DNA from: an uncultured Ruminococcus sp.
Lineage (GTDB): Bacteria > Bacillota > Clostridia > Oscillospirales > Acutalibacteraceae
Direction of reading: 5' to 3'
Length of the DNA stretch: 39,932 nucleotides
Assembly (NCBI GenBank): GCA_902786345.1
Contig: CADACB010000015.1
Span: 1 to 39,932, forward strand
A program made the translations under genes and the position numbers. The notes under the pieces were generated by a model. The model saw nothing but the letters and a program-made list of their open reading frames with translations. It was not told the origin of the DNA and ran no database searches. This document shows positions 1-10,503 of this stretch, piece by piece (position 1 is the first letter of the stretch; every line of letters starts with the position of its first letter).

Positions 1-83
1 TTTTCTTCTTCAAATACGGTGTTTTCAGTGTACTGCTTTCCTCTGCATATCAAGCCTTTTTCAAAGCCTTTGTATCCTTTCAT
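1..83 (-). CDS. N-terminus of a small phage-type protein (DUF7666-like), cut by window edge
   Basis: An ATG at 83-81 preceded by a well-spaced AGGAGG opens a frame that runs off the left edge. The visible start is MKGYKGFEKGLICRGKQY. This matches the recurring opening of small Firmicute phage proteins of the DUF7666 kind, which begin M-K-x-(Y/F)-K-G-F and contain a C-R-G-x-Q-Y motif. No function is established. It lies 20 bp downstream of the 61-aa gene and is probably in the same leftward early operon. Confidence 0.6.
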   Translation of the reverse strand, partial: MKGYKGFEKGLICRGKQYTENTVFEEE

Positions 84-103
84 TTTGGTATCCTCCTGTT
101 GGT

Positions 104-289
104 TTACTGTTCAGCTTCAGACTGAGAATCTAAACGTTTTCTTTGTTGTGCGACATAATCCTCCATAACTATTCTTGCACAGTTATCAAGAATTTGCTTA
201 ACTTCTTCTTTGGTCTTTACACAGTACTTGTCATCAACAAACATCTTCGGCTTTCTGTAACCATAATCAACTGCAAGCTTAATTGCCAT
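104..289 (-). CDS. Hypothetical 61-aa element protein
   Basis: The ATG at 289 has an AAAGGAG ribosome site about 8 nt upstream, which supports a real gene. The product is small, soluble and charged (many K, E and D), with no membrane segment and no domain I recognise. A predicted helical stretch (KTKEEVKQILDNCARIVMED) fills the middle. It lies between the XRE gene and the DUF7666-like gene, all leftward, so it is probably part of the early operon driven by the promoter at 680-708. Function unknown. Confidence 0.6.
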   Translation of the reverse strand: MAIKLAVDYGYRKPKMFVDDKYCVKTKEEVKQILDNCARIVMEDYVAQQRKRLDSQSEAEQ

Positions 290-359
290 AAAAACAGCTC
301 CTTTCGTATCATAAGTATGTATGAGTTTATGGTTTTAGGTCTTTTTTATAAGAGTGATC

Positions 360-632
360 TCATCCTCTTACAAGTTTTTCTATACTCGTATTCCAAATTT
401 CTTTACCTACCTTTTGTACGCTTAAAGCGTAATCTGTTCCAAAAAAAATATAGTCTGTTGGAAATTTATATACTTCACCTATTTTTTTCACCATATCCCA
501 TTGAGGAACAGTTTTACCGCTTTCATAATTTTGAAGCGTTACTTTTGAGATATTCAACAATTTAGCGGCTTCATCCTGAGATAAATTCGCATTAACTCTT
601 GCTGCTTTCAGTTGAATTTTCGGAAATTGCAA
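360..632 (-). CDS. XRE-family HTH regulator, Cro-like position
   Basis: A protein of about 90 aa with an N-terminal lambda-repressor-like helix-turn-helix. Typical features are LSQDEAAKLLNIS, the recognition-helix region VTLQNYESG and the trailing VPQWDMVKKIGEVY. I chose the TTG at 632-630 because it lies 9 nt from AAGGAGG; the in-frame TTG at 638 is only 3 nt away. It is the first gene transcribed leftward from the switch region, opposite the S24 repressor, which is the place occupied by Cro-type regulators in temperate phages. Its transcript starts at a perfect TTGACA-17-TATAAT promoter overlapped by repeated operator-like sites. The Cro role is inferred from position only. Confidence 0.8.
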   Translation of the reverse strand: MQFPKIQLKAARVNANLSQDEAAKLLNISKVTLQNYESGKTVPQWDMVKKIGEVYKFPTDYIFFGTDYALSVQKVGKEIWNTSIEKLVRG

Positions 633-650
633 TATCAATCACCTCCTTCA

Positions 651-722
651 TTCGCTTTTGGCGAATTGGTTATGTTCATATTATATTACGCTAAAAGCGA
701 ATTGTCAAGCTAAAAACGAAAT
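651..722. promoter_or_regulatory. Operator array of the repressor/Cro switch
   Basis: Three similar 15-bp sites lie between the divergent genes. Read on the sense that matches, they are TTCGCTTTTGGCGAA (651-665, plus strand), AATTCGCTTTTAGCG (minus strand, about 689-703) and TTTCGTTTTTAGCTT (minus strand, about 708-722). A weaker relative, TTTCTTTTAGCTT, lies near 749-761. The shared core is TTCG-Y-TTTT-R-GC. The second site fills the spacer of the leftward promoter, the third overlaps its -35 box, and the first lies just downstream of its start. Binding by the S24 repressor at 789 is inferred. Confidence 0.7.
680..708 (-). promoter_or_regulatory. Leftward early promoter of the element
   Basis: On the minus strand, -35 TTGACA (708-703), a 17-bp spacer and -10 TATAAT (685-680) match the sigma-A consensus exactly. 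It drives the XRE gene and the small genes to its left. A promoter this strong in a lysogen must normally be shut off, which fits the operator-like repeats overlapping it. Confidence 0.85.
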
Positions 723-737
723 ATTTTTTATTTTTTA

Positions 738-766
738 TTGATTTTATTTTTCTTTTAGCTTATAAT
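738..766 (+). promoter_or_regulatory. Repressor (maintenance) promoter
   Basis: -35 TTGATT (738-743), 17-bp spacer, -10 TATAAT (761-766), about 22 bp upstream of the repressor ATG at 789. The leader is therefore very short, with the AGG of the ribosome site at 778-780. A degenerate operator-like site overlaps the region just before the -10, which suggests autoregulation. Confidence 0.75.
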
Positions 767-788
767 ATAAAAAACGGAGGTGAACGGT

Positions 789-1418
789 ATGACACCAAAA
801 GAGGTTTTTGCAAAAAACTTAAACAGGTTGCTTACTAAACACGGGAAAACGCAAGCTGATCTTGTGTCTTATATGAATACTACAGCTTCGACTGTATCTG
901 ACTGGTGCAATGGCAAAAAGTATCCACGTGTTGATAGAATGCAAAAAATTGCCGATTATTTCGGTGTACTTAAATCAGATCTTACTGAGGAACACCAACC
1001 TGAGATAAACCCACAAGAAATATACCCGGTACACAAAATACCCGTTCTTGGACGTATCTCGGCGGGTATGCCGCTGTATGCTGAAGAACATATAATAGAT
1101 TATATATATACAACACTAAACAGCGGAAACGAATATTTTGCTTTGCTCGTTAAGGGTGACAGTATGAACGCTGCTCGTATTTATGAAGATGATATTATTG
1201 TTGTACGCAAACAATCACAAGTGGAAGATGGTGAAATAGCTGTGGTTATGGTAGATGATAATGATGCTACTGTTAAACGTTTTCATCAATCAGGACGGAT
1301 TGTTACCCTTATGCCTCAAAGTCTGAATCCTGCAAATCAGGTTCAAGTGTACGACCTTAAAGAAACAAACATCCGCATTATCGGCAAAGTAGTTCAGGTA
1401 GTATATAAGATGGAATGA
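789..1418 (+). CDS. LexA/CI-type repressor, HTH plus S24 peptidase
   Basis: A 209-aa phage-type repressor. Residues about 5-65 are an XRE helix-turn-helix (KTQADLVSYMN, TASTVSDWCNG). Residues about 85-205 are a LexA-like autoprotease: the scissile Ala-Gly is A92-G93 (GRISAGMPL), the nucleophile is S125 (VKGDSMN) and the general base is K163 (ATVKRF). In this family RecA filaments formed on damaged DNA trigger self-cleavage and prophage induction. The ATG at 789 is chosen because GGAGG (776-780) is 8 nt away; the upstream GTG at 780 overlaps that site. It probably maintains lysogeny by binding the repeats at 651-722. All catalytic residues are present, so it looks functional. Confidence 0.93.
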   Translation: MTPKEVFAKNLNRLLTKHGKTQADLVSYMNTTASTVSDWCNGKKYPRVDRMQKIADYFGVLKSDLTEEHQPEINPQEIYPVHKIPVLGRISAGMPLYAEEHIIDYIYTTLNSGNEYFALLVKGDSMNAARIYEDDIIVVRKQSQVEDGEIAVVMVDDNDATVKRFHQSGRIVTLMPQSLNPANQVQVYDLKETNIRIIGKVVQVVYKME

Positions 1419-1500
1419 ACAATAGTTTAGAATAAGCAAAGTATGTTTATGACATAAAAAGTGACCGTGTGATTATATAACAAATAAGCAGGTGTACAAA

Positions 1501-2037
1501 ATGGAAATTACACAAGAATATGATCAGAAAATTGTAGATAAGATTTCAAATTTAATTAAACCGGAATACCTAAATAAAGCCAAATTGATTCTGCAAGTAA
1601 AATCCGACAGTTCAAATAGTATCAGGATTATTTTGGAAAATAATCCTTGGAGAAATGGAGTTGTGAAAGGAAATTCATTTTTTGCAAATATTAAATCTTA
1701 TGGTAAAATCACATACATTAATTTTAAAAATGAATACGCATATTATTTTACAATATTGGGTATTAAATATACCGCAAATAAGTCAGAAATAACTTCCGAA
1801 TATATCAGAATCAAACTATCTGATTTTATAGATTTGCTCGAAGAGCCCACTGCTGACTTTATAAATATGATAAACGAAGTATTTTTGAACAATATTTCAT
1901 TTCCTCAATTTGGTTGTTGTTCAAAATACGAAAAGTGTAAAGAACAAGGGGAGTGCCTCCACATTGATCAGCTTTATGCTACAGCCTGTCAATGGCAAAA
2001 ACATATAAAAAGGACTGATAAGATTGATAATCCCTGA
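1501..2037 (+). CDS. Unknown element protein with C-terminal cysteine cluster
   Basis: A 178-aa protein with start ATG 1501, 6 nt after AGGTG; the in-frame GTG at 1492 lies inside that site. Residues 1-135 are charged and rich in beta-type segments, with no domain I recognise. The C-terminus has a compact cysteine cluster, GCCSKYEKCKEQGEC followed by H-x10-C-Q-W, spaced C-C-x4-C-x5-C-x11-C with a nearby His. Similar CCSRY-x-x-C motifs recur at the C-termini of Firmicute phage proteins and probably bind zinc or an iron-sulphur cluster, which is my inference. It starts 82 bp after the repressor on the same strand and overlaps the next gene by 14 bp, so the two are likely translationally coupled. 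Confidence 0.65.
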   Translation: MEITQEYDQKIVDKISNLIKPEYLNKAKLILQVKSDSSNSIRIILENNPWRNGVVKGNSFFANIKSYGKITYINFKNEYAYYFTILGIKYTANKSEITSEYIRIKLSDFIDLLEEPTADFINMINEVFLNNISFPQFGCCSKYEKCKEQGECLHIDQLYATACQWQKHIKRTDKIDNP

Positions 2038-2314
2038 TGGATATAAAAGCTTTAGCAGCTTTGAGGAAAAGCGTAAAAAATATTATGAATGGGGTTTTAA
2101 GAGCAGAAAAAAAGATGAACTCAAATCACTTTATTATAAAGGCGCATTTACGGATGACCCTTATAACAATCCTGAGCCTTGCGACATCATCGGCTATTAT
2201 AATGATATTGAAATTATAATTGAATTACAAAACAGCGGCAAGAAGATAATTATTGACAGAAGATATTTGAAGCAAATGCAGGAAAAACATTTTAAACAAA
2301 ATCAGCCCGATTAG
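2024..2314 (+). CDS. Unknown 96-aa element protein
   Basis: It starts at TTG 2024, about 9 nt after AAAGGA and inside the end of the preceding gene; no usable ATG exists near the N-terminus. The product is small and charged. An N-terminal helical segment (SFEEKRKKYYEWGFKSRKK) is followed by an acidic turn (GAFTDDPYNNPEPCD) and a C-terminal beta-rich unit with alternating Ile (IEIIIELQNSGKKIIIDRRY). I recognise no domain. The overlap with the Cys-cluster gene and the position before the exonuclease gene suggest a three-gene cassette. The TTG start lowers certainty. Confidence 0.6.
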   Translation: MIIPDGYKSFSSFEEKRKKYYEWGFKSRKKDELKSLYYKGAFTDDPYNNPEPCDIIGYYNDIEIIIELQNSGKKIIIDRRYLKQMQEKHFKQNQPD

Positions 2315-2398
2315 ATATAAAGTCTAAATATAATAGAGAATAATTAGGTCATTACGCTCAGTTTAAGCGATTAAAAACCACTGAAAGGTTGTATGTAA

Positions 2399-3373
2399 AT
2401 GAGTAGAGGAACGGCAACATTTGCTTTTGGACCGGAGGGCTTTACATATGATAAACCAAATAGACAATTCAAAGGAAAGAACATAATTGCATTTCCAAAT
2501 GAATATGTGGTGATTGATTTAGAAACAACCGGTTTATCCTCATATTGGGATTTTGTTATAGAAATAGGAGCTCTAAAAATAAAAAACGGAGAAATTACCG
2601 ACCAATTTCAGCAGTTAATTTATCCCGGTATGGAGATTGATGAATTTATCGAACAGTTTACCGGAATAACAAATGAAATGCTGATAGGTCAACCTTATCT
2701 TGATGATATATTACCCAAATTGGATGATTTTATTGGTGAAAATATCATATTAGGGCATAATACCAACTTCGATATAAATTTTTTGTACGATAATTATATC
2801 CGATGTCTGGGGAAACCGTTTTCTAATAACTTTATAGACAATATGAGATTGTCCAGAAAATTATATCCTGAATTGCCTCATCACAGATTGATAGATATTA
2901 TAGAAAAATTGAATATTGAAGCCTCAACTTTTCACAGAGCATTAATTGACTGCAACTATACATATAAATGCTTTGAACTTATGAAAGACGAAATATCGGC
3001 AAGGTATGGTAGCTTAGAAGCATTTCAAGCACTTTTTAAATACCAATACGTTGATTTGACTAAACTAAAAGCAGAAAACAAAGATTTTGATGAAACACAT
3101 CCACTATACAATAAAGTATGTGTTTTTACAGGAAAGCTGGAAAAATATACAAGAGAGCAAGCCGCACAAATGGTTGTTAATCTTGGCGGGCTATGTGAAA
3201 ATAACGTAACTAAAAAGACTAATTTTTTAATTTTAGGGAATAACGACTACTGCTCTGCCATAAAAGATGGAAAAAGCAATAAACAAAAGAAAGCCGAAGC
3301 TTACAAGCTTAAAGGTCAGGATATAGAAATTATTCCCGAAAGCGTGTTTTATGATATGTTTGAAAATAGTTAG
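2399..3373 (+). CDS. DEDDh 3'-5' exonuclease with C-terminal BRCT domain
   Basis: A 324-aa protein. Residues about 35-195 form a DnaQ/PolC-type proofreading exonuclease fold with every catalytic residue: D40 and E42 (VIDLETTGL), D125 (GHNTNFDINF), H179 and D184 (HRALIDC). Residues about 237-322 form a BRCT domain (VCVFTGKLEKYTREQAA, NLGG, then KKTNFLILG and a closing PESVFYDMF). The combination suggests an exonuclease directed to DNA ends, nicks or repair intermediates. It is a stand-alone protein, not a polymerase subunit. It is the last gene of the rightward cargo group behind the SOS-type repressor. A role in phage replication, DNA repair or anti-invader defence are all possible; nothing here decides between them. 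Confidence 0.85.
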   Translation: MSRGTATFAFGPEGFTYDKPNRQFKGKNIIAFPNEYVVIDLETTGLSSYWDFVIEIGALKIKNGEITDQFQQLIYPGMEIDEFIEQFTGITNEMLIGQPYLDDILPKLDDFIGENIILGHNTNFDINFLYDNYIRCLGKPFSNNFIDNMRLSRKLYPELPHHRLIDIIEKLNIEASTFHRALIDCNYTYKCFELMKDEISARYGSLEAFQALFKYQYVDLTKLKAENKDFDETHPLYNKVCVFTGKLEKYTREQAAQMVVNLGGLCENNVTKKTNFLILGNNDYCSAIKDGKSNKQKKAEAYKLKGQDIEIIPESVFYDMFENS

Positions 3374-3468
3374 AAAAGTATTTATCGAAAATTTTCAGCA
3401 ATTGTGGGAATTTGAGCCGCTGATAATTAAGAAATTTAAAGTTTGCTCAACGAAATAACAATTTATAT

Positions 3469-3499
3469 AAAAAACCACCCCGCCGAATAATGACGGGGT
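3469..3499 (-). terminator. Rho-independent terminator after hicB
   Basis: On the minus strand, stem ACCCCG/CGGGGT (3499-3494 with 3482-3477) is followed by GG and a run of six T (3474-3469). It lies 30 bp beyond the hicB stop codon and between convergent genes. Confidence 0.8.
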
Positions 3500-3528
3500 A
3501 AATTGTTCAAAAATCTTTCAGAATGCGC

Positions 3529-3975
3529 TTATGGACTATTTAGGAGTACAGTCATAAAAATAAAAAACAGATTAAGCTCTGCTTTTAGGGCTTTTTGAAG
3601 AACTTGCGAGAAGTTGATTTTATTCTGGATGGCAAGATCGTTAAGCCACGAGGGAATTGTAAGCGTTTTCTTGACGGACTTTTCGAAATGCGCTTTTGCA
3701 TATTCGTCAACATCAACCGTAACGATATTAACAAAAGCCTCTGCATATTCGTTGTATTCATCATCAAGATTAATCTTGTCAGGAGATGACGGTTTAGGAA
3801 TCGGTTCACCGCTCTGCTTCATATCAAACAGATAGCCCGCTAAACAGTCAACTGACATTTTAAGTGCGTCCTCTAAAGTGTTTCCACAGGTGGCAAGATG
3901 ATTAAGATCGGGAAAAATAACGCTGTAGCCGCCTTCGTGCTCTTTGTAAAAACAAGCAGGATATGCAAATAACAT
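3529..3975 (-). CDS. hicB: HicB antitoxin
   Basis: A 148-aa antitoxin of the HicAB system. Residues about 1-55 form the HicB RNase H-like partial fold (YPACFYKEHEGGYSVIFPDL, then TCGNTLEDALKMSVDCLAGYL). A C-terminal ribbon-helix-helix-like DNA-binding segment follows (KTLTIPSWLNDLAI then NFSQVLQKALKAEL). It neutralises HicA and autorepresses the operon. The ATG at 3975 is preferred over the upstream GTG at 3984, which lies within the AAAGGTG ribosome site. The last 14 residues (NLFFIFMTVLLNSP) are unusually hydrophobic for the family and may come from a late frameshift or readthrough into non-homologous sequence. It lies 42 bp downstream of hicA. Confidence 0.9.
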   Translation of the reverse strand: MLFAYPACFYKEHEGGYSVIFPDLNHLATCGNTLEDALKMSVDCLAGYLFDMKQSGEPIPKPSSPDKINLDDEYNEYAEAFVNIVTVDVDEYAKAHFEKSVKKTLTIPSWLNDLAIQNKINFSQVLQKALKAELNLFFIFMTVLLNSP

Positions 3976-4017
3976 AAAAATCACCTTTCTTTATTAATTA
4001 TTATGGTGCGGCAGGGT

Positions 4018-4200
4018 TTATTTCAGCCCCGCCTGTTTCAAGATGGAATTGACCGTCCCTTTCGGAATATCACCCTTATGGTTTGGTATGGTAACCTTGC
4101 CCTTTTTACTTGGGTGCTTGTAAGAATAGTGAGAACCTCTTACTCTTTCCGGCACCCAACCATCCGCAAGGATGATTTTTTCGATTTCTCTGAACGTCAT
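4018..4200 (-). CDS. hicA: HicA mRNA-interferase toxin
   Basis: A 60-aa protein of the HicA/YcfA family with a dsRBD-like fold. The catalytic histidine is in RGSHYSYKHP, followed by the typical VTIPNHKGDIPKGTVNSILKQAGL ending. HicA toxins bind and cleave mRNA independently of the ribosome until HicB sequesters them. ATG 4200 is 8 nt from AGGCGG; the in-frame GTG at 4209 lies on that site and is less likely. Toxin-first order is typical for hicAB. The pair sits between the cargo genes and the integrase, where it could stabilise the element. Confidence 0.92.
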   Translation of the reverse strand: MTFREIEKIILADGWVPERVRGSHYSYKHPSKKGKVTIPNHKGDIPKGTVNSILKQAGLK

Positions 4201-4223
4201 TTCTATCACCGCCTTATGTATAT

Positions 4224-4259
4224 ATTATATCATCATATACGTATTTTGTCAATACGTAT
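4224..4259 (-). promoter_or_regulatory. hicAB promoter with two ATACGTAT operators
   Basis: On the minus strand, TTGACA (4252-4247), 17-bp spacer and TATAAT (4229-4224) form a perfect sigma-A promoter. Two identical palindromes ATACGTAT (4237-4244 and 4252-4259), each within the longer repeat AAAATACGTAT, flank the -35 box 15 bp apart. Such repeats are expected as binding sites for the RHH domain of HicB. The rightward integrase has a -10-like TATAAT at 4267-4272, so the upstream palindrome would also sit in its promoter spacer. Confidence 0.8.
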
Positions 4260-4331
4260 TTTGAAATATAATAATCTCCTGCGGCGCTGTGAAGCGTCAG
4301 CGGTGTCAGCTTAATGAAAGGAGCTGCGAAT

Positions 4332-5906
4332 ATGCCATACTGTATGTATTTAAGAAAATCAAGAGCTGATGCGGAAGCCGAATTACGCGGCGAGGGAGAA
4401 ACACTTGCCCGTCACGAAAAGCTTCTCACGGATTTTGCAAAGCAAGCAGGTCTTGAAGTAAAGGTTATATATAAAGAAATAGTCAGCGGAGAAACTATCG
4501 CAGCGCGTCCGCAAATGCAAAAGCTCCTGTCTGAGGTAAGTGAGGGCTTATGGGATGGCGTATTGGTAATGGACATTGATCGTCTCGCAAGAGGAAACAG
4601 TATAGATCAGGGAATTATTTCCCAGACATTTCTATATGCCAATACCAAAATAATAACGCCTGTAAAAACATATGATCCGACAAACGAATTTGACGAGGAA
4701 TATTTTGAATTTGGTTTGTTTATGAGCCGGCGAGAGTATAAAACCATAAATCGGCGTTTGCAAAGAGGCAGAATAGCCAGTGCTAAGGAAGGTAAATATG
4801 TAGGCAATAAAGCACCATACGGATATGAAAGAGTTAAAATAAAAGATGACACCGGCTTTACACTCTCCCCTGTTCCTGTTCAGGCAGAGGTTGTGCGTAA
4901 TATTTTTGAGTGGTACACATCAGGCATAATTCTTGACGACGGAACAAAAAAACGTATCGGAACATCTCTTATAGCGCGTGAATTAAATCATCGTAAGATA
5001 AAGCCTGTAAACGGAGATGTTTGGACATCCCAAACTATAAGGGATATGCTCATAAATCCGGTATATATCGGCAAGATACGTTGGAATTGGCGCCCTGCAA
5101 AGAAAAAGATGATAAATGGCAAAGTAGTTGTTCAGCGCCCGAGAAACAAAAATGAAGATACAATTCTTTGCAACGGAATTCACGAAGGAATAATTAGTGA
5201 AGATGTGTTTAATAAAGCAGCTCAACTTTTTGGAAATAATAAGAGCTGCACTATAAGAGGAGATAAAACCACTCAAAATCCACTTGCCGGATTGGTTATA
5301 TGTAAGAAGTGCGGCAAAAAAATGCAGCGCAGAAACAATCCCCAAAATCCGGATATGCTTATCTGTCCTGCTCCTACTTGTAACAATCACGCTTCATATT
5401 TATACCTCGTAGAAAAATATGTAATAGACATAGTTAAGCGTTGGTCAGAAGGACATATTCTACAATACACAAGCAACCAATTTCCGATTCAGAGCGATTA
5501 TGACTATAAGTCTGAATTATCAGCAATAAGCTTATCGGAAGATAAGTTAAATTCTCAGCTTAATAAAGCATATGAAGCCTTTGAAACAGGAATATATGAT
5601 GCCGAAACATTTAAAAAACGCAGTACAGCTCTTAACAATCAGCTGAAGGAAATTCAAAAAAAGAAAAAATCCCTTAAAGATAATATAAAAAAAATTATAG
5701 AAAATGAAAAAGTAATTTCGGAATTTATACCAAAAGCAAAAGAAATCGCAGGATCTTATTACAGTGTTACAGATAATTACAGAAAAAATGAAATGTTAAA
5801 AGAAATTGTTGATCATATGGATTATATCAAGGAAACACGAGGACACGGGCACGAAGAAGATTTTGTAATTACTGTTTATCCTAAGCTTCCGGATGTATAT
5901 AATTAA
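4332..5906 (+). CDS. Large serine recombinase (site-specific integrase)
   Basis: A 524-aa integrase. Residues 1-150 are the resolvase catalytic domain with nucleophile S10 (YLRKSRAD) and VLVMDIDRLARG. Then come a recombinase domain (about 165-265, GKYVGNKAPYGYERV, INPVYIGKIRW), a zinc ribbon with two Cys pairs (VICKKCGKKM and LICPAPTC, about 325-355), a coiled coil rich in K/E (about 400-470) and a short tail. The length and domain order are normal for phage and ICE integrases. The ATG at 4332 has AAAGGAG 8 nt upstream; an earlier ATG at 4314 has no such site. The gene ends 23 bp from the att centre, so it is the terminal gene of the element. It looks intact, so excision should be possible given a directionality factor. 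Confidence 0.95.
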   Translation: MPYCMYLRKSRADAEAELRGEGETLARHEKLLTDFAKQAGLEVKVIYKEIVSGETIAARPQMQKLLSEVSEGLWDGVLVMDIDRLARGNSIDQGIISQTFLYANTKIITPVKTYDPTNEFDEEYFEFGLFMSRREYKTINRRLQRGRIASAKEGKYVGNKAPYGYERVKIKDDTGFTLSPVPVQAEVVRNIFEWYTSGIILDDGTKKRIGTSLIARELNHRKIKPVNGDVWTSQTIRDMLINPVYIGKIRWNWRPAKKKMINGKVVVQRPRNKNEDTILCNGIHEGIISEDVFNKAAQLFGNNKSCTIRGDKTTQNPLAGLVICKKCGKKMQRRNNPQNPDMLICPAPTCNNHASYLYLVEKYVIDIVKRWSEGHILQYTSNQFPIQSDYDYKSELSAISLSEDKLNSQLNKAYEAFETGIYDAETFKKRSTALNNQLKEIQKKKKSLKDNIKKIIENEKVISEFIPKAKEIAGSYYSVTDNYRKNEMLKEIVDHMDYIKETRGHGHEEDFVITVYPKLPDVYN

Positions 5907-6122
5907 GTTATATCTTATAGGTACGCATTCTTCAGTACCTATATCTGTAAGAACCGCTTTTACCTCAGGATAAGGTACCGAATATCTTTGACTAAGGTAT
6001 CTGAGTGATGCACCAAGCTCTCCATCAGGACCACCATATTGAGAAATTATAATTTTAGCAAGCTTTGGATTAGTTTGTTTTATATTGATGGGATATTGCA
6101 GTTTCTTCTCATAAACCCACAT
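5796..6122 (-). pseudogene. cotJC: cotJC 5' part, interrupted by the element
   Basis: The first 65 codons are clear CotJC, the manganese-catalase-like spore coat protein (MWVYEKKLQYP, ISQYGGPDGELGASLRYLSQRY, LTDIGTEE). The metal-ligand Glu E35 and the TEE of the E-E-x-x-H ligand motif are present. From codon 66 the frame continues for 43 unrelated residues read antisense through the att site and the 3' end of the integrase gene, then stops. Family members are around 190 aa, so two thirds, including most Mn ligands, is missing here. The ATG at 6122 with GGAGG is 2 bp after the cotJB stop. The remainder should lie at the far end of the element, so excision would restore the gene. Confidence 0.88.
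5916..5943. other. Hybrid attachment site (att) inside cotJC
   Basis: A 9-bp inverted repeat, TATAGGTAC (5916-5924) and GTACCTATA (5935-5943), surrounds a 10-bp centre. The symmetry axis falls between 5929 and 5930, giving central dinucleotide TC (GA on the other strand). Homology to CotJC ends at codon 65, whose last base is 5928, exactly at this axis. Dyad symmetry round a crossover dinucleotide is what serine integrases need. One arm comes from cotJC and the other from the element, as expected for attL or attR. Confidence 0.75.
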
Positions 6123-6124
6123 AG

Positions 6125-6376
6125 TTAATCCTCCTGTCTGTCCCATGGCCACGGATCAGAAATCCACGCCCAGCGATTACCGGTTTCATTCATAGAAGTA
6201 AGCGGACCAAATTTAGACTCAAATTCCTTACGCAAAGTGTCAGCTTTTGATTCGTAATACGCAAGGGCATCAGCTGCACTTGTATCATCAGGGTGTGTGT
6301 CAAGATAAATATGAAGCTCGTTTACGGCAAAGTCATAGGAGGAAAGTCGTCTGAGTAATCGCTCACGTTCAGTCAT
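6125..6376 (-). CDS. cotJB: Spore coat protein CotJB
   Basis: An 83-aa protein typical of CotJB: RLLRRLSSYDFAVNELHIYLDTHPDDTSAADALAYY in the middle and a conserved C-terminal W-x-W-x-x-x-P-W-P-W (NRWAWISDPWPWDRQED). It is a small coat-associated protein of the cotJABC operon, made in the mother cell in Bacillus. ATG 6376 has a strong AAAGGAGG. Its start overlaps the cotJA stop by 8 bp and its stop is 2 bp before cotJC, so the three genes form one tightly coupled unit. It is complete. Confidence 0.95.
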   Translation of the reverse strand: MTERERLLRRLSSYDFAVNELHIYLDTHPDDTSAADALAYYESKADTLRKEFESKFGPLTSMNETGNRWAWISDPWPWDRQED

Positions 6377-6575
6377 TTGGTTTTCCTCCTTTGTTACAAC
6401 CTGGCATAAAGGGCTTGTTCAGTTCAGGGAACATAGTACCGGTTTGAATACCATGTTCCGGTGAATAAAGCTTTGTTGCATTCTGAAAAGGTATATATGC
6501 CATTGCAACGACCGTATCTTTTGGAAGAGGCCGTACAAAAAAATCGGACTTTTGAAGCTCTTTTATAACATCCAT
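6369..6575 (-). CDS. cotJA: Spore coat-associated protein CotJA
   Basis: A 68-aa CotJA-like protein with the family signature A-Y-I-P-x-Q (VVAMAYIPFQNATKLYSPEHGIQTGTMFPELNKPFMPG). ATG 6575 has AAAGGAG upstream. It is the first gene of cotJABC and follows a candidate sporulation promoter at 6606-6614. In Bacillus subtilis CotJA is needed for assembly of CotJC into the coat. The gene is intact, so only the last member of the operon has been hit by the element. Confidence 0.93.
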   Translation of the reverse strand: MDVIKELQKSDFFVRPLPKDTVVAMAYIPFQNATKLYSPEHGIQTGTMFPELNKPFMPGCNKGGKPND

Positions 6576-9339: not shown

Positions 9340-10503
9340 TTATCCGTCAGATTCGTGTATTTCAAGCTGATAAAGCACGTTTTCATCTGCATTTAAAAAT
9401 TCAAGGACAAGCGAGAATTCTTTTATATCTGCACTTTCTCTTAGTTTTTTGATGGTATGTGCTGCCTGAATTTTATATGATACCGTATTGACACGAGAGT
9501 CAAGATACGCTTTCAGATTAGGAAGATCGTAATCTGAAATATCAAGCATTGTGTTCGACTTATATTCCATAACAAGCTGATCTTCTCCCCTGACATAACA
9601 ATCTATAGTAAAATTCATTGAAGGGTCGGATGCCATTGTTTGAGTAAGAGCCGATCGCAGCGAAGAAATATTAGATTTGCCGTCTGCGGTTTCTGACCAC
9701 TGCTTAAGGGACTTTTTATTGTTTGTTACATAGAAGAAAACCGCAACTCCTACAGCTATTGCAACAATAATAATGATTATACTTATTAACGAGGAACTAT
9801 TCCGACGTTTTACTGTTGTTGAGGTACTTACAACTGGGTTGTGGTAGGATGATGAAAACATTGCATTGGGATCATATGTATTGCCGTACAGACCTGAACC
9901 GGAGTCAGAAAACATTGCATTTGGATCATAATTATCATGTGTTTCCTGAGATAAATGACCAAAGTTTGTTGCTTCGCCGAAGTTATTTGTACTTCCGGTA
10001 TTGTTGTATGTACCGAAACCGTTGTTGCTATAGTCCTGTGGTGTATTTCGCTGACCATAGGGTTCTGCTTCGCCGAAGTTATTTGTACTTGAGGCGTTGT
10101 TGTATGTACCGAAACCGTTGTTGCTATAGTCCTGTGGTGTATTTTGCTGACCATAGGGTTCTGCTTCGCCGAAGTTATTTGTACTTCCGGTATTGTTGTA
10201 TGTACCGAAACCGTTGTTGCTATAGTCCTGTGGTATATTTTGCTGACCATAGGGTTCTGCTTCGCCGAAGTTATTTGTACTTCCGGCGTTGTTGTATGCA
10301 CCGAAGCTGTTGTTGCTATAGTCCTGTGGTGTATTTTGCTGAACATAAGATGATGTATCATCCGAATTAACTGTATTATCATTATTATCCTGCGGTACAG
10401 TGCCGTCATATCCGCCAAGAAAATCTCCGCCTAAAAAAGCGTCACTGAAATCACTTGATGAGCCGGTATTCACGCCGAAGCCGTGTGACTTTTTATTATC
10501 CAT
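9340..10503 (-). CDS. Repeat-rich single-pass membrane protein, DUF4854-like C-terminus
   Basis: A 387-aa protein. Residues 1-60 are Gly/Asp/Asn-rich. Residues about 55-185 consist of four 32-residue repeats (core QDYSNNGFGTYNNTGSTNNF, then GEAEPYGQQN) encoded by a 96-bp tandem repeat. A short motif YDPNAMFS occurs twice (near 195 and 215). A membrane helix follows (SLISIIIIIVAIAVGVAVFFYV, about 240-262), then an extracellular C-terminal domain of about 120 aa resembling DUF4854-type domains (FTIDCYVRGEDQLVMEYKS). The lack of a signal peptide suggests the disordered repeats face the cytosol. ATG 10503 is preferred to TTG 10509 because GGGAG is 9 nt from it. Function unknown. Confidence 0.75.
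   Translation of the reverse strand: MDNKKSHGFGVNTGSSSDFSDAFLGGDFLGGYDGTVPQDNNDNTVNSDDTSSYVQQNTPQDYSNNSFGAYNNAGSTNNFGEAEPYGQQNIPQDYSNNGFGTYNNTGSTNNFGEAEPYGQQNTPQDYSNNGFGTYNNASSTNNFGEAEPYGQRNTPQDYSNNGFGTYNNTGSTNNFGEATNFGHLSQETHDNYDPNAMFSDSGSGLYGNTYDPNAMFSSSYHNPVVSTSTTVKRRNSSSLISIIIIIVAIAVGVAVFFYVTNNKKSLKQWSETADGKSNISSLRSALTQTMASDPSMNFTIDCYVRGEDQLVMEYKSNTMLDISDYDLPNLKAYLDSRVNTVSYKIQAAHTIKKLRESADIKEFSLVLEFLNADENVLYQLEIHESDG
9979..10350 (-). repeat. Four tandem 96-bp in-frame repeats
   Basis: Copies begin at 9979, 10075, 10171 and 10267, each 96 bp (32 codons). The two central units are nearly identical, while the 5'-most unit of the gene (10267 onward) is more diverged. The period is a multiple of three, so copy number can change without a frameshift. 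They encode the N-terminal low-complexity region of the protein at 9340-10503. Confidence 0.9.

Follow-up and report, generated by a model that had tools for sequence, protein, structure and literature searches.

Mobile elements interrupt the spore-coat gene cotJC at four recurrent points in Ruminococcus and related bacteria and are probably excised to rejoin it

A 39,932-nucleotide stretch of DNA from an uncultured Ruminococcus sp. (CADACB010000015.1, assembly GCA_902786345.1), here called the window, carries the 5′ part of cotJC, a gene for a manganese (Mn) catalase of the spore coat, next to a gene for a large serine recombinase (LSR). The window is a whole contig (G000:C15) of a 2.35-Mb genome assembled in 75 contigs. 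We found that a temperate-phage-type element, inserted by the LSR, interrupts cotJC between codons 65 and 66, and that cotJC is split at this and three other points in many genomes of the genus. Taken as a whole, the evidence makes it probable that a guild of cotJC-intervening elements, present in several families of the class, is excised to rejoin cotJC in sporulating cells.

Results

A prophage interrupts cotJC in the window

The cotJA, cotJB and cotJC genes lie in operon order on the minus strand (6575-5928). A first-pass annotation, made from the sequence of the window, had described this operon as whole except for cotJC, and family matches on the minus strand bear this out (PF11007, PF12652 and PF05067; Table 1). 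Alignment with relatives likewise agreed that the cotJC match ends after codon 65, in the residues GTEE. The LSR is a protein of 524 residues with resolvase, recombinase and zinc-ribbon domains, and its gene is convergent with cotJC. The last base of its stop codon, 5906, is separated by 21 bp from 5928, where codon 65 of cotJC ends; this corrects the distance of 23 bp first given. A dyad-symmetric attachment (att) site had been placed at the break, and the dyad TATAGGTAC...GTACCTATA is indeed visible at 5916-5943.

The 3′ part of cotJC had been expected at the far end of the element. It was found on another contig of the same genome (C37), next to endolysin, holin, minor tail and Dit genes. 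Repressor, lysis and tail genes thus lie between attL and attR, as in a temperate prophage, with the middle of the element on other contigs. The longest stretch that attL and attR share is AAGAAT. When the two flanks were joined at this core, the reading frame was restored and encoded a CotJC protein of 205 amino acids, identical to the product of the intact gene of another genome of the genus (G012) at 186 of 200 residues. A Mn-catalase family search of the window's genome returned two places, the 5′ part and the 3′ part on C37; the second full-length cotJC that the annotation had named as contrary evidence was not found.

cotJC is split at four points beside metal-ligand codons

A Mn_catalase match was present in 52 of 64 genomes of the genus, and 51 of these contain cotJC; the remaining one (G058) has a distant paralogue only. 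Among the 51 cotJC genes, 9 were intact, 36 were split and 6 were cut by contig ends alone. A script made 35 of the 36 split calls, and G017 was assigned by inspection, its sequence leaving cotJC at site 4. The breaks in split genes coincide with att cores and fall at four points: site 1 (codon 31) is occupied in 18 genomes, site 2 (codon 65, the site of the window) in 14, the window included, site 3 (codon 134) in 7 and site 4 (codon 176) in 7, with two points occupied in 10 genomes. In one genome, G008, LSR genes at distances of 9 bp and 1.6 kb flank a middle piece of about 34 codons, and in G045 site 1 is present in two versions, one cut and one uncut, that agree at 104 of 105 nucleotides. 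In G055 (contig C8, locus L050), the 5′ piece (44-139, minus strand) and the 3′ piece (9739-10140, plus strand) are in opposite orientation, through either an inversion or a misassembly.

We used two other genes as controls. RRF, a housekeeping gene about as long as cotJC, was detected in 56 of these 64 genomes, full length in 54 and cut at a contig start in 2, with no recurrent splits. SpoIVA matched in 60 of the 64 genomes, including the window's own, where the match is over the cut-off; it was incomplete or in pieces in 5 genomes, with differing breakpoints, and slightly short in 2. Because neither gene has such recurrent breaks, those in cotJC do not reflect simple fragmentation.

CotJC can be aligned with the solved Mn catalases 6j42 and 1jku. 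We take its metal ligands to be E35, E65, H68, E136 and H169, following the numbering of the Lactobacillus enzyme, and the residues at CotJC positions 35, 65, 68, 136 and 169 are E, E, H, E and H. With this ligand assignment, the distance from the insertion point to a ligand codon is 4, 0, 2 and 7 codons for sites 1 to 4, so the annotation was right to put the window's break in a metal-ligand motif, and the pattern is wider, as all four points are within 7 codons of one. The most conserved stretches of DNA are found near these codons, and this likely explains the proximity.

Each insertion point has its own recombinase lineage

An LSR gene stands beside 30 of the 46 occupied points in the genus (13, 12, 3 and 2 for sites 1 to 4). 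A tree of these 30 proteins divides into four groups that match the four points, and a well-supported branch sets each group apart from the rest (98/96, 100/99, 100/99 and 100/100). Identity is 19.9 to 30.3% between groups and at least 52.5% within them, and the site labels require 3 changes on the tree, the minimum possible, versus 13.6 when shuffled. As the labels come from the gene neighborhood, the tree tests fidelity and not function. Most of the genes (25 of 30) are 4 to 37 bp from a cotJC piece; those farther off are at L044 (162 bp), L093 (199 bp), L069 (227 bp), L050 (551 bp) and, for one gene, L056 (1572 bp). A fifth LSR lineage occurs at the codon-65 region in three genomes of the wider family survey described below (G308, G070 and G084), with 47 to 56% identity among these three.

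The association extends to larger collections. A scan with 12 site-1 LSRs returned 564 relatives, and of the best 80, some of which belong to the same genus genomes as the tree, 73 are 4 to 68 bp away from a piece of cotJC that breaks off near codon 31, 3 run into a contig end and 4 are not beside cotJC. Site-2-like LSRs were present at an E value of 1e-100 in 19 of 196 class-wide genomes and adjoin a cotJC piece at 11 of 22 places, the window's included (10 of the 11 best scoring and 1 of the 11 others). On these comparisons, several unrelated LSR lineages are each specialized on one conserved stretch of cotJC beside a metal-ligand codon.

Two relatives were seen in other settings. The Paenibacillus larvae phage phiIBB_Pl23 (L384) encodes an LSR that is 47.6% identical to that of the window, with a dyad of similar core behind the gene. 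On the cotJ contig of G029, upstream of the operon, is a fragment that shares 55% identity with site-4 LSRs across 128 residues (L045, around base 677).

Split cotJC genes are as constrained as intact ones

The split genes contain no stop in 4763 codons. The nine intact genes all agree at 127 positions, and at these 38 of the 3048 split-gene cells differ. When each intact gene was left out in turn and positions invariant in the other eight were used, the intact genes differed in 17 of 1160 cells and the split genes in 46 to 59 of 3062 to 3160 (counts made before G017 was trimmed). The median ratio of nonsynonymous to synonymous differences (pN/pS) was 0.131 for intact-intact, 0.128 for mixed and 0.127 for split-split pairs, with synonymous sites near saturation. 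By these measures split cotJC is as constrained as intact cotJC.

The smallest insertions extend this comparison over time. A 2.3-kb mini-element made up of an LSR gene, a small divergent open reading frame (ORF) and an Amidase_6-like gene, with no apparent phage structural gene or repressor, occupies codon 31 in three species (G340, G182 and UBA4883). Between them, synonymous divergence (dS) is 1.1 to 1.5 for the LSR gene and 1.5 to 2.5 for the amidase gene, similar to host genes (0.6 to 2.0 for cotJB; 1.3 and 1.7 for cotJC, with the third pair saturated), and the two pairs for which cotJC dS is finite have a cotJC dN/dS of 0.05 and 0.02. The mini-element has therefore diverged along with the genes of its hosts, with cotJC constrained while interrupted. 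A superoxide dismutase (SOD)-bearing element, compared between Anaeromassilibacillus senegalensis and D33t1, is more diverged than the cotJC gene that it interrupts (dS 0.59 for the LSR and 0.47 for the SOD gene versus 0.17 for cotJC, whose dN/dS is 0.038 over the 68 codons compared). Given the intact-like constraint and the long codivergence with mini-elements, interrupted cotJC apparently still works, most simply by excision at spore formation. The restoration of the gene that the annotation had proposed is supported to this extent, by comparison: constraint is intact-like, and it has held while the gene was long interrupted.

Elements vary in size and cargo across the family

In a family survey of 300 genomes from 135 genera, 232 had a CotJC-like match; among the matches listed, which cover 150 of the 232 genomes and favor full-length genes, 105 were full length and 45 partial. 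We examined 20 family genomes closely, chosen as apparently partial or well assembled, and 18 of them had a split cotJC. Carriers include one-contig genomes (for example, G117, G214, G308 and G340) and the named strains Faecalispora jeddahensis JCD, A. senegalensis mt9 and Ruminococcus flavefaciens SAb67. In F. jeddahensis JCD and A. senegalensis mt9, a single contig spans the site-1 element (4.5 and 3.2 kb, respectively) together with the two parts of cotJC. Insertions that could be measured on one contig range from 2.3 to 53 kb. The single contig of G308 holds three cotJC pieces in order, separated by gaps of 14.6 and 31.4 kb, and G084 has four pieces on two contigs. Small elements carry genes for SOD, AhpC/TSA peroxiredoxin, TspO, cupin, Amidase_6 and GH25-LysM proteins.

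In IMG/VR, a cotJC piece accompanies 19 of 80 relatives of site-1 LSRs and 12 of 80 relatives of site-2 LSRs. Five IMG/VR site-1 contigs (L307, L308, L309, L318 and L322) have an intact attP behind the LSR gene and no cotJC in the stretch examined, and we read these contigs as probable free phage forms.

An unusual arrangement was seen in G182, which has a near-identical second copy of cotJC codons 172 to 198 about 29 kb from the complete 3′ end (L125 1207-1287 and L126 2730-3284); it looks as though a site-4 element brought its own replacement tail.

Promoter signals and possible excision in the mother cell

The cotJ genes are, we assume, a mother-cell operon. Upstream of cotJA, a motif of ACC, 16 bp and CATA.TAT was present in 77 of 107 regions and is consistent with a mother-cell promoter. 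A −10 sequence of the CATA type precedes 19 of 86 LSR genes compared with 70 of 675 other genes, and is also more frequent than in shuffled sequences. At up to 20 of 103 site-1 loci, a count that includes duplicates, the LSR gene is closely preceded by a small divergent ORF; these ORFs form a family that, by position only, is a candidate for the directionality factor.

By analogy with sigK, spsM and gerE, excision may take place in the mother cell during sporulation. The LSR, together with a directionality factor, would excise the element precisely and rejoin cotJC. This would happen in cells committed to sporulation, most likely in the mother cell, whose chromosome is discarded, while the spore would inherit the interrupted copy; the element would therefore persist and the coat would still receive its Mn catalase. 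We hold the restoration of cotJC with fair confidence and its timing in sporulation with less.

Several observations weigh against this model. A promoter model derived from cotJA was found before 5 of 86 site-1 LSR genes versus 1.9 in shuffled sequences, a value that 6 of 100 shuffles reach, and before none of 33 small ORFs. When the CATA-type −10 sequence was compared with that of low-GC other genes, the excess was smaller (19 of 86 versus 48 of 358; P = 0.06). Nor did we identify a recombination directionality factor in the window element. The window's genome has one full-length sigma-E/K-like factor (G000:C13:8874-9542), below both curated cut-offs, which leaves the full sporulation ability of this host in doubt.

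Sixteen of the 46 occupied points have no LSR gene in the available sequence, mostly short stretches. At codon 65, an LSR of the same lineage is present at 12 of the 14 cuts; in the other two genomes, 1.6 kb of element is available in G052, and our search found no LSR in 12.3 and 4.6 kb on the two sides of the element in G046 (L048 and L049). The same search found none in 5.7 kb on one side in G030 (site 3) or in 2.8 kb on one side in G009 (site 4). A 2.8-kb site-4 element in G242 (L128 1685-4521) encodes a small resolvase of 184 amino acids only, with no LSR by profile, so that cotJC may be permanently cut there; this insertion has possibly decayed and become fixed.

Other features of the window

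The element's cargo in the window (Table 1) gave no clear defense system with PADLOC; the exonuclease matched the DEDDh and PDC-S48 models and the regulators generic helix-turn-helix models. The HicAB pair (3529-4331) is divergent from the LSR gene, and by eye the start region of the LSR gene overlaps the apparent hicA promoter and its inverted repeat. Also by eye, a site-1 element of R. flavefaciens RUG10802 contains a Y-family-polymerase-like gene with a partner of 137 amino acids (L221 2100-4029), and a similar pair is on the host side of cotJC in the window's genome (L004 2394-4290).

Table 1. Features of the cotJC-intervening element and its flanks (window positions unless another contig is named)
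Feature	Position	Strand	Evidence
cotJA, first gene of the operon	6372-6575	minus	PF11007, E 4.3e-16
cotJB	6128-6376	minus	PF12652, E 1e-26
cotJC 5′ part, codons 1-65	5928-6122	minus	PF05067 positions 1-66 match at 5925-6122
attL	5905-5950	unstranded	dyad 5916-5943; core AAGAAT, plus-strand ATTCTT 5927-5932
LSR, site-2 lineage	4332-5906	plus	PF00239, PF07508, PF13408; phrog_95 integrase; 30-LSR tree
HicA toxin of the element's toxin-antitoxin pair	4018-4209	minus	PF07927, E 5.8e-23
HicB-like antitoxin	3529-3984	minus	PF15919, E 6.2e-13
DnaQ-like exonuclease with BRCT domain, element cargo	2399-3373	plus	PF00929, PF00533
Phage-type repressor, helix-turn-helix and S24 peptidase	780-1418	plus	PF00717, PF01381; phrog_4
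Cro/C1-type regulator	360-638	minus	phrog_8 and related families
Left arm of cotJC-intervening prophage	1-5927	unstranded	reaches contig end at base 1
cotJC 3′ part, codons 66-205	G000:C37 (L004 6455-6892)	minus	Mn_catalase 59-198
Right arm of the element	L004 6900-13081	–	endolysin, holin, tail and Dit families beside cotJC 3′ part

Discussion

Four other explanations of the split genes have to be weighed. The one that survives best, although we consider it unlikely, is that cotJC is a convenient, dispensable landing site for phages, so that insertion kills the gene and restoration amounts at most to accidental loss of the prophage. In its favor, the window element is a phage that encodes a repressor, HicAB, holin and endolysin; G242 perhaps contains a fixed insertion; and LSRs are generally known to target conserved sequences often. 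According to extracts of published work on C. difficile and Bacillus subtilis, mutants lacking CotJC-type proteins have no clear coat defects, with catalase activity lower in C. difficile. A dispensable target, however, does not fit the split genes, in which constraint is not relaxed and pieces persist even where the gene is cut two or three times, nor the mini-elements, which lack phage structural genes and have codiverged with their hosts beside a constrained cotJC. Constraint and codivergence thus disfavor a pseudogene created at a phage hot spot.

Somewhat less probable still is that excision is real and not developmental, with CotJC supplied either through phage induction or by a population that always contains both excised and integrated cells (active lysogeny in a wide sense). 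The two site-1 alleles in G045, the contigs with intact attP and an LSR promoter with no clear sporulation signature would all agree with it. Yet cotJC is constrained beside the 2.3-kb mini-elements, in which no phage structural gene or repressor is apparent, and the motif upstream of the cotJ operon resembles that of a mother-cell gene, so restoration should matter in sporulation only.

It is very improbable that the two halves act as separate polypeptides of a split enzyme, with the DNA never rejoined. The 3′ part in the window's genome does have an in-frame ATG in phage sequence, but a strong hairpin lies directly before it on the phage side of attR (−30.6 kcal/mol, z −6.4), inspection by eye shows no clear ribosome site, and middle pieces of some 34 codons between two LSR genes, as in G008, are unlikely to be useful proteins. 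A terminator scan at attR found nothing within its loop limit, despite the strong hairpin in the fold. An assembly or binning artifact can be rejected: many assemblies are fragmented and the G055 pieces face opposite ways, but the breaks fall at att cores, RRF shows no recurrent splits, and the same splits occur in one-contig genomes and in cultured isolates such as F. jeddahensis JCD.

Excision of elements that rejoins cotJC in sporulating cells would place them in a known class, and a 2020 paper by Mageeney et al. reportedly deals with regulated gene integrity.

Extracts of seven sources on intervening elements and CotJC (PMC11222575, PMC10747680, PMC12122855, PMC5595907, PMC12884075, PMC4191935 and PMC13141910) describe elements in sigK, spoVFB, spoVR, spsM, gerE and yabG, and the comparisons that follow draw on these extracts. 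The window element has in common with such elements an insertion inside a coding sequence of which both parts were found, a serine recombinase at the element edge 21 bp from the break, and a short core at which rejoining restores the frame. The closest parallel is skin in sigK (B. subtilis, C. difficile and C. perfringens), likewise an LSR element in a mother-cell gene with precise, frame-restoring rejoining, and its core of five nucleotides in B. subtilis is about as short as that of cotJC. The target of skin is a sigma factor, whereas here it is a coat Mn catalase with four insertion points and unrelated LSR lineages, for which excision is the probable reading. SPbeta in spsM of B. subtilis is also a temperate phage in a spore-envelope gene; its excision and regulation by sprB are proven, whereas the cotJC element rests on a comparative signature. 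The gin element in gerE of B. cereus ATCC 10987 resembles the mini-elements in having a serine recombinase and no phage structural genes, but it has three recombinases, where the 2.3-kb cotJC mini-element has a single LSR accompanied by a small divergent ORF and one cargo gene. Further elements in sporulation genes are yin in yabG of C. botulinum, vfbin in spoVFB and vrin in spoVR; yin is described as unique to one strain, whereas cotJC elements are spread over many genera and may be stacked within a single gene. In C. difficile R20291, the prophage phi027 is tied to a cotJC homologue, yet lies adjacent to the gene and not inside it. Our literature search found no report of elements inside cotJC. 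Elements of this kind are thus known; what is new, within the reach of that search, is the gene targeted, the stacking, the number of recombinase lineages involved and the breadth.

A more ambitious picture, on which we are evenly divided, is that cotJC of Clostridia behaves like a gene with introns at the DNA level. There would be four fixed points by ligand codons, a dedicated recombinase lineage for each (two at the codon-65 region) and up to four gene pieces, so that several enzymes would have to excise their elements before the mother cell could make its catalase. Some elements would have become domesticated, minimal and vertically inherited, with SOD or peroxiredoxin cargo that may serve the spore.

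In the extracts available to us, published rearrangements of sporulation genes are few and concern few genes. If our interpretation is true, with unrelated recombinases cutting one gene at four points in most species of a genus and with carriers among cultured strains and one-contig genomes, developmental DNA excision would change from a curiosity into something widespread and open to comparison between lineages. The cotJC elements would provide a natural experiment on why mobile elements pick mother-cell genes, along with a set of site-specific recombinases all aimed at conserved coding DNA. They also carry a warning, as split sporulation genes may be annotated away as pseudogenes.

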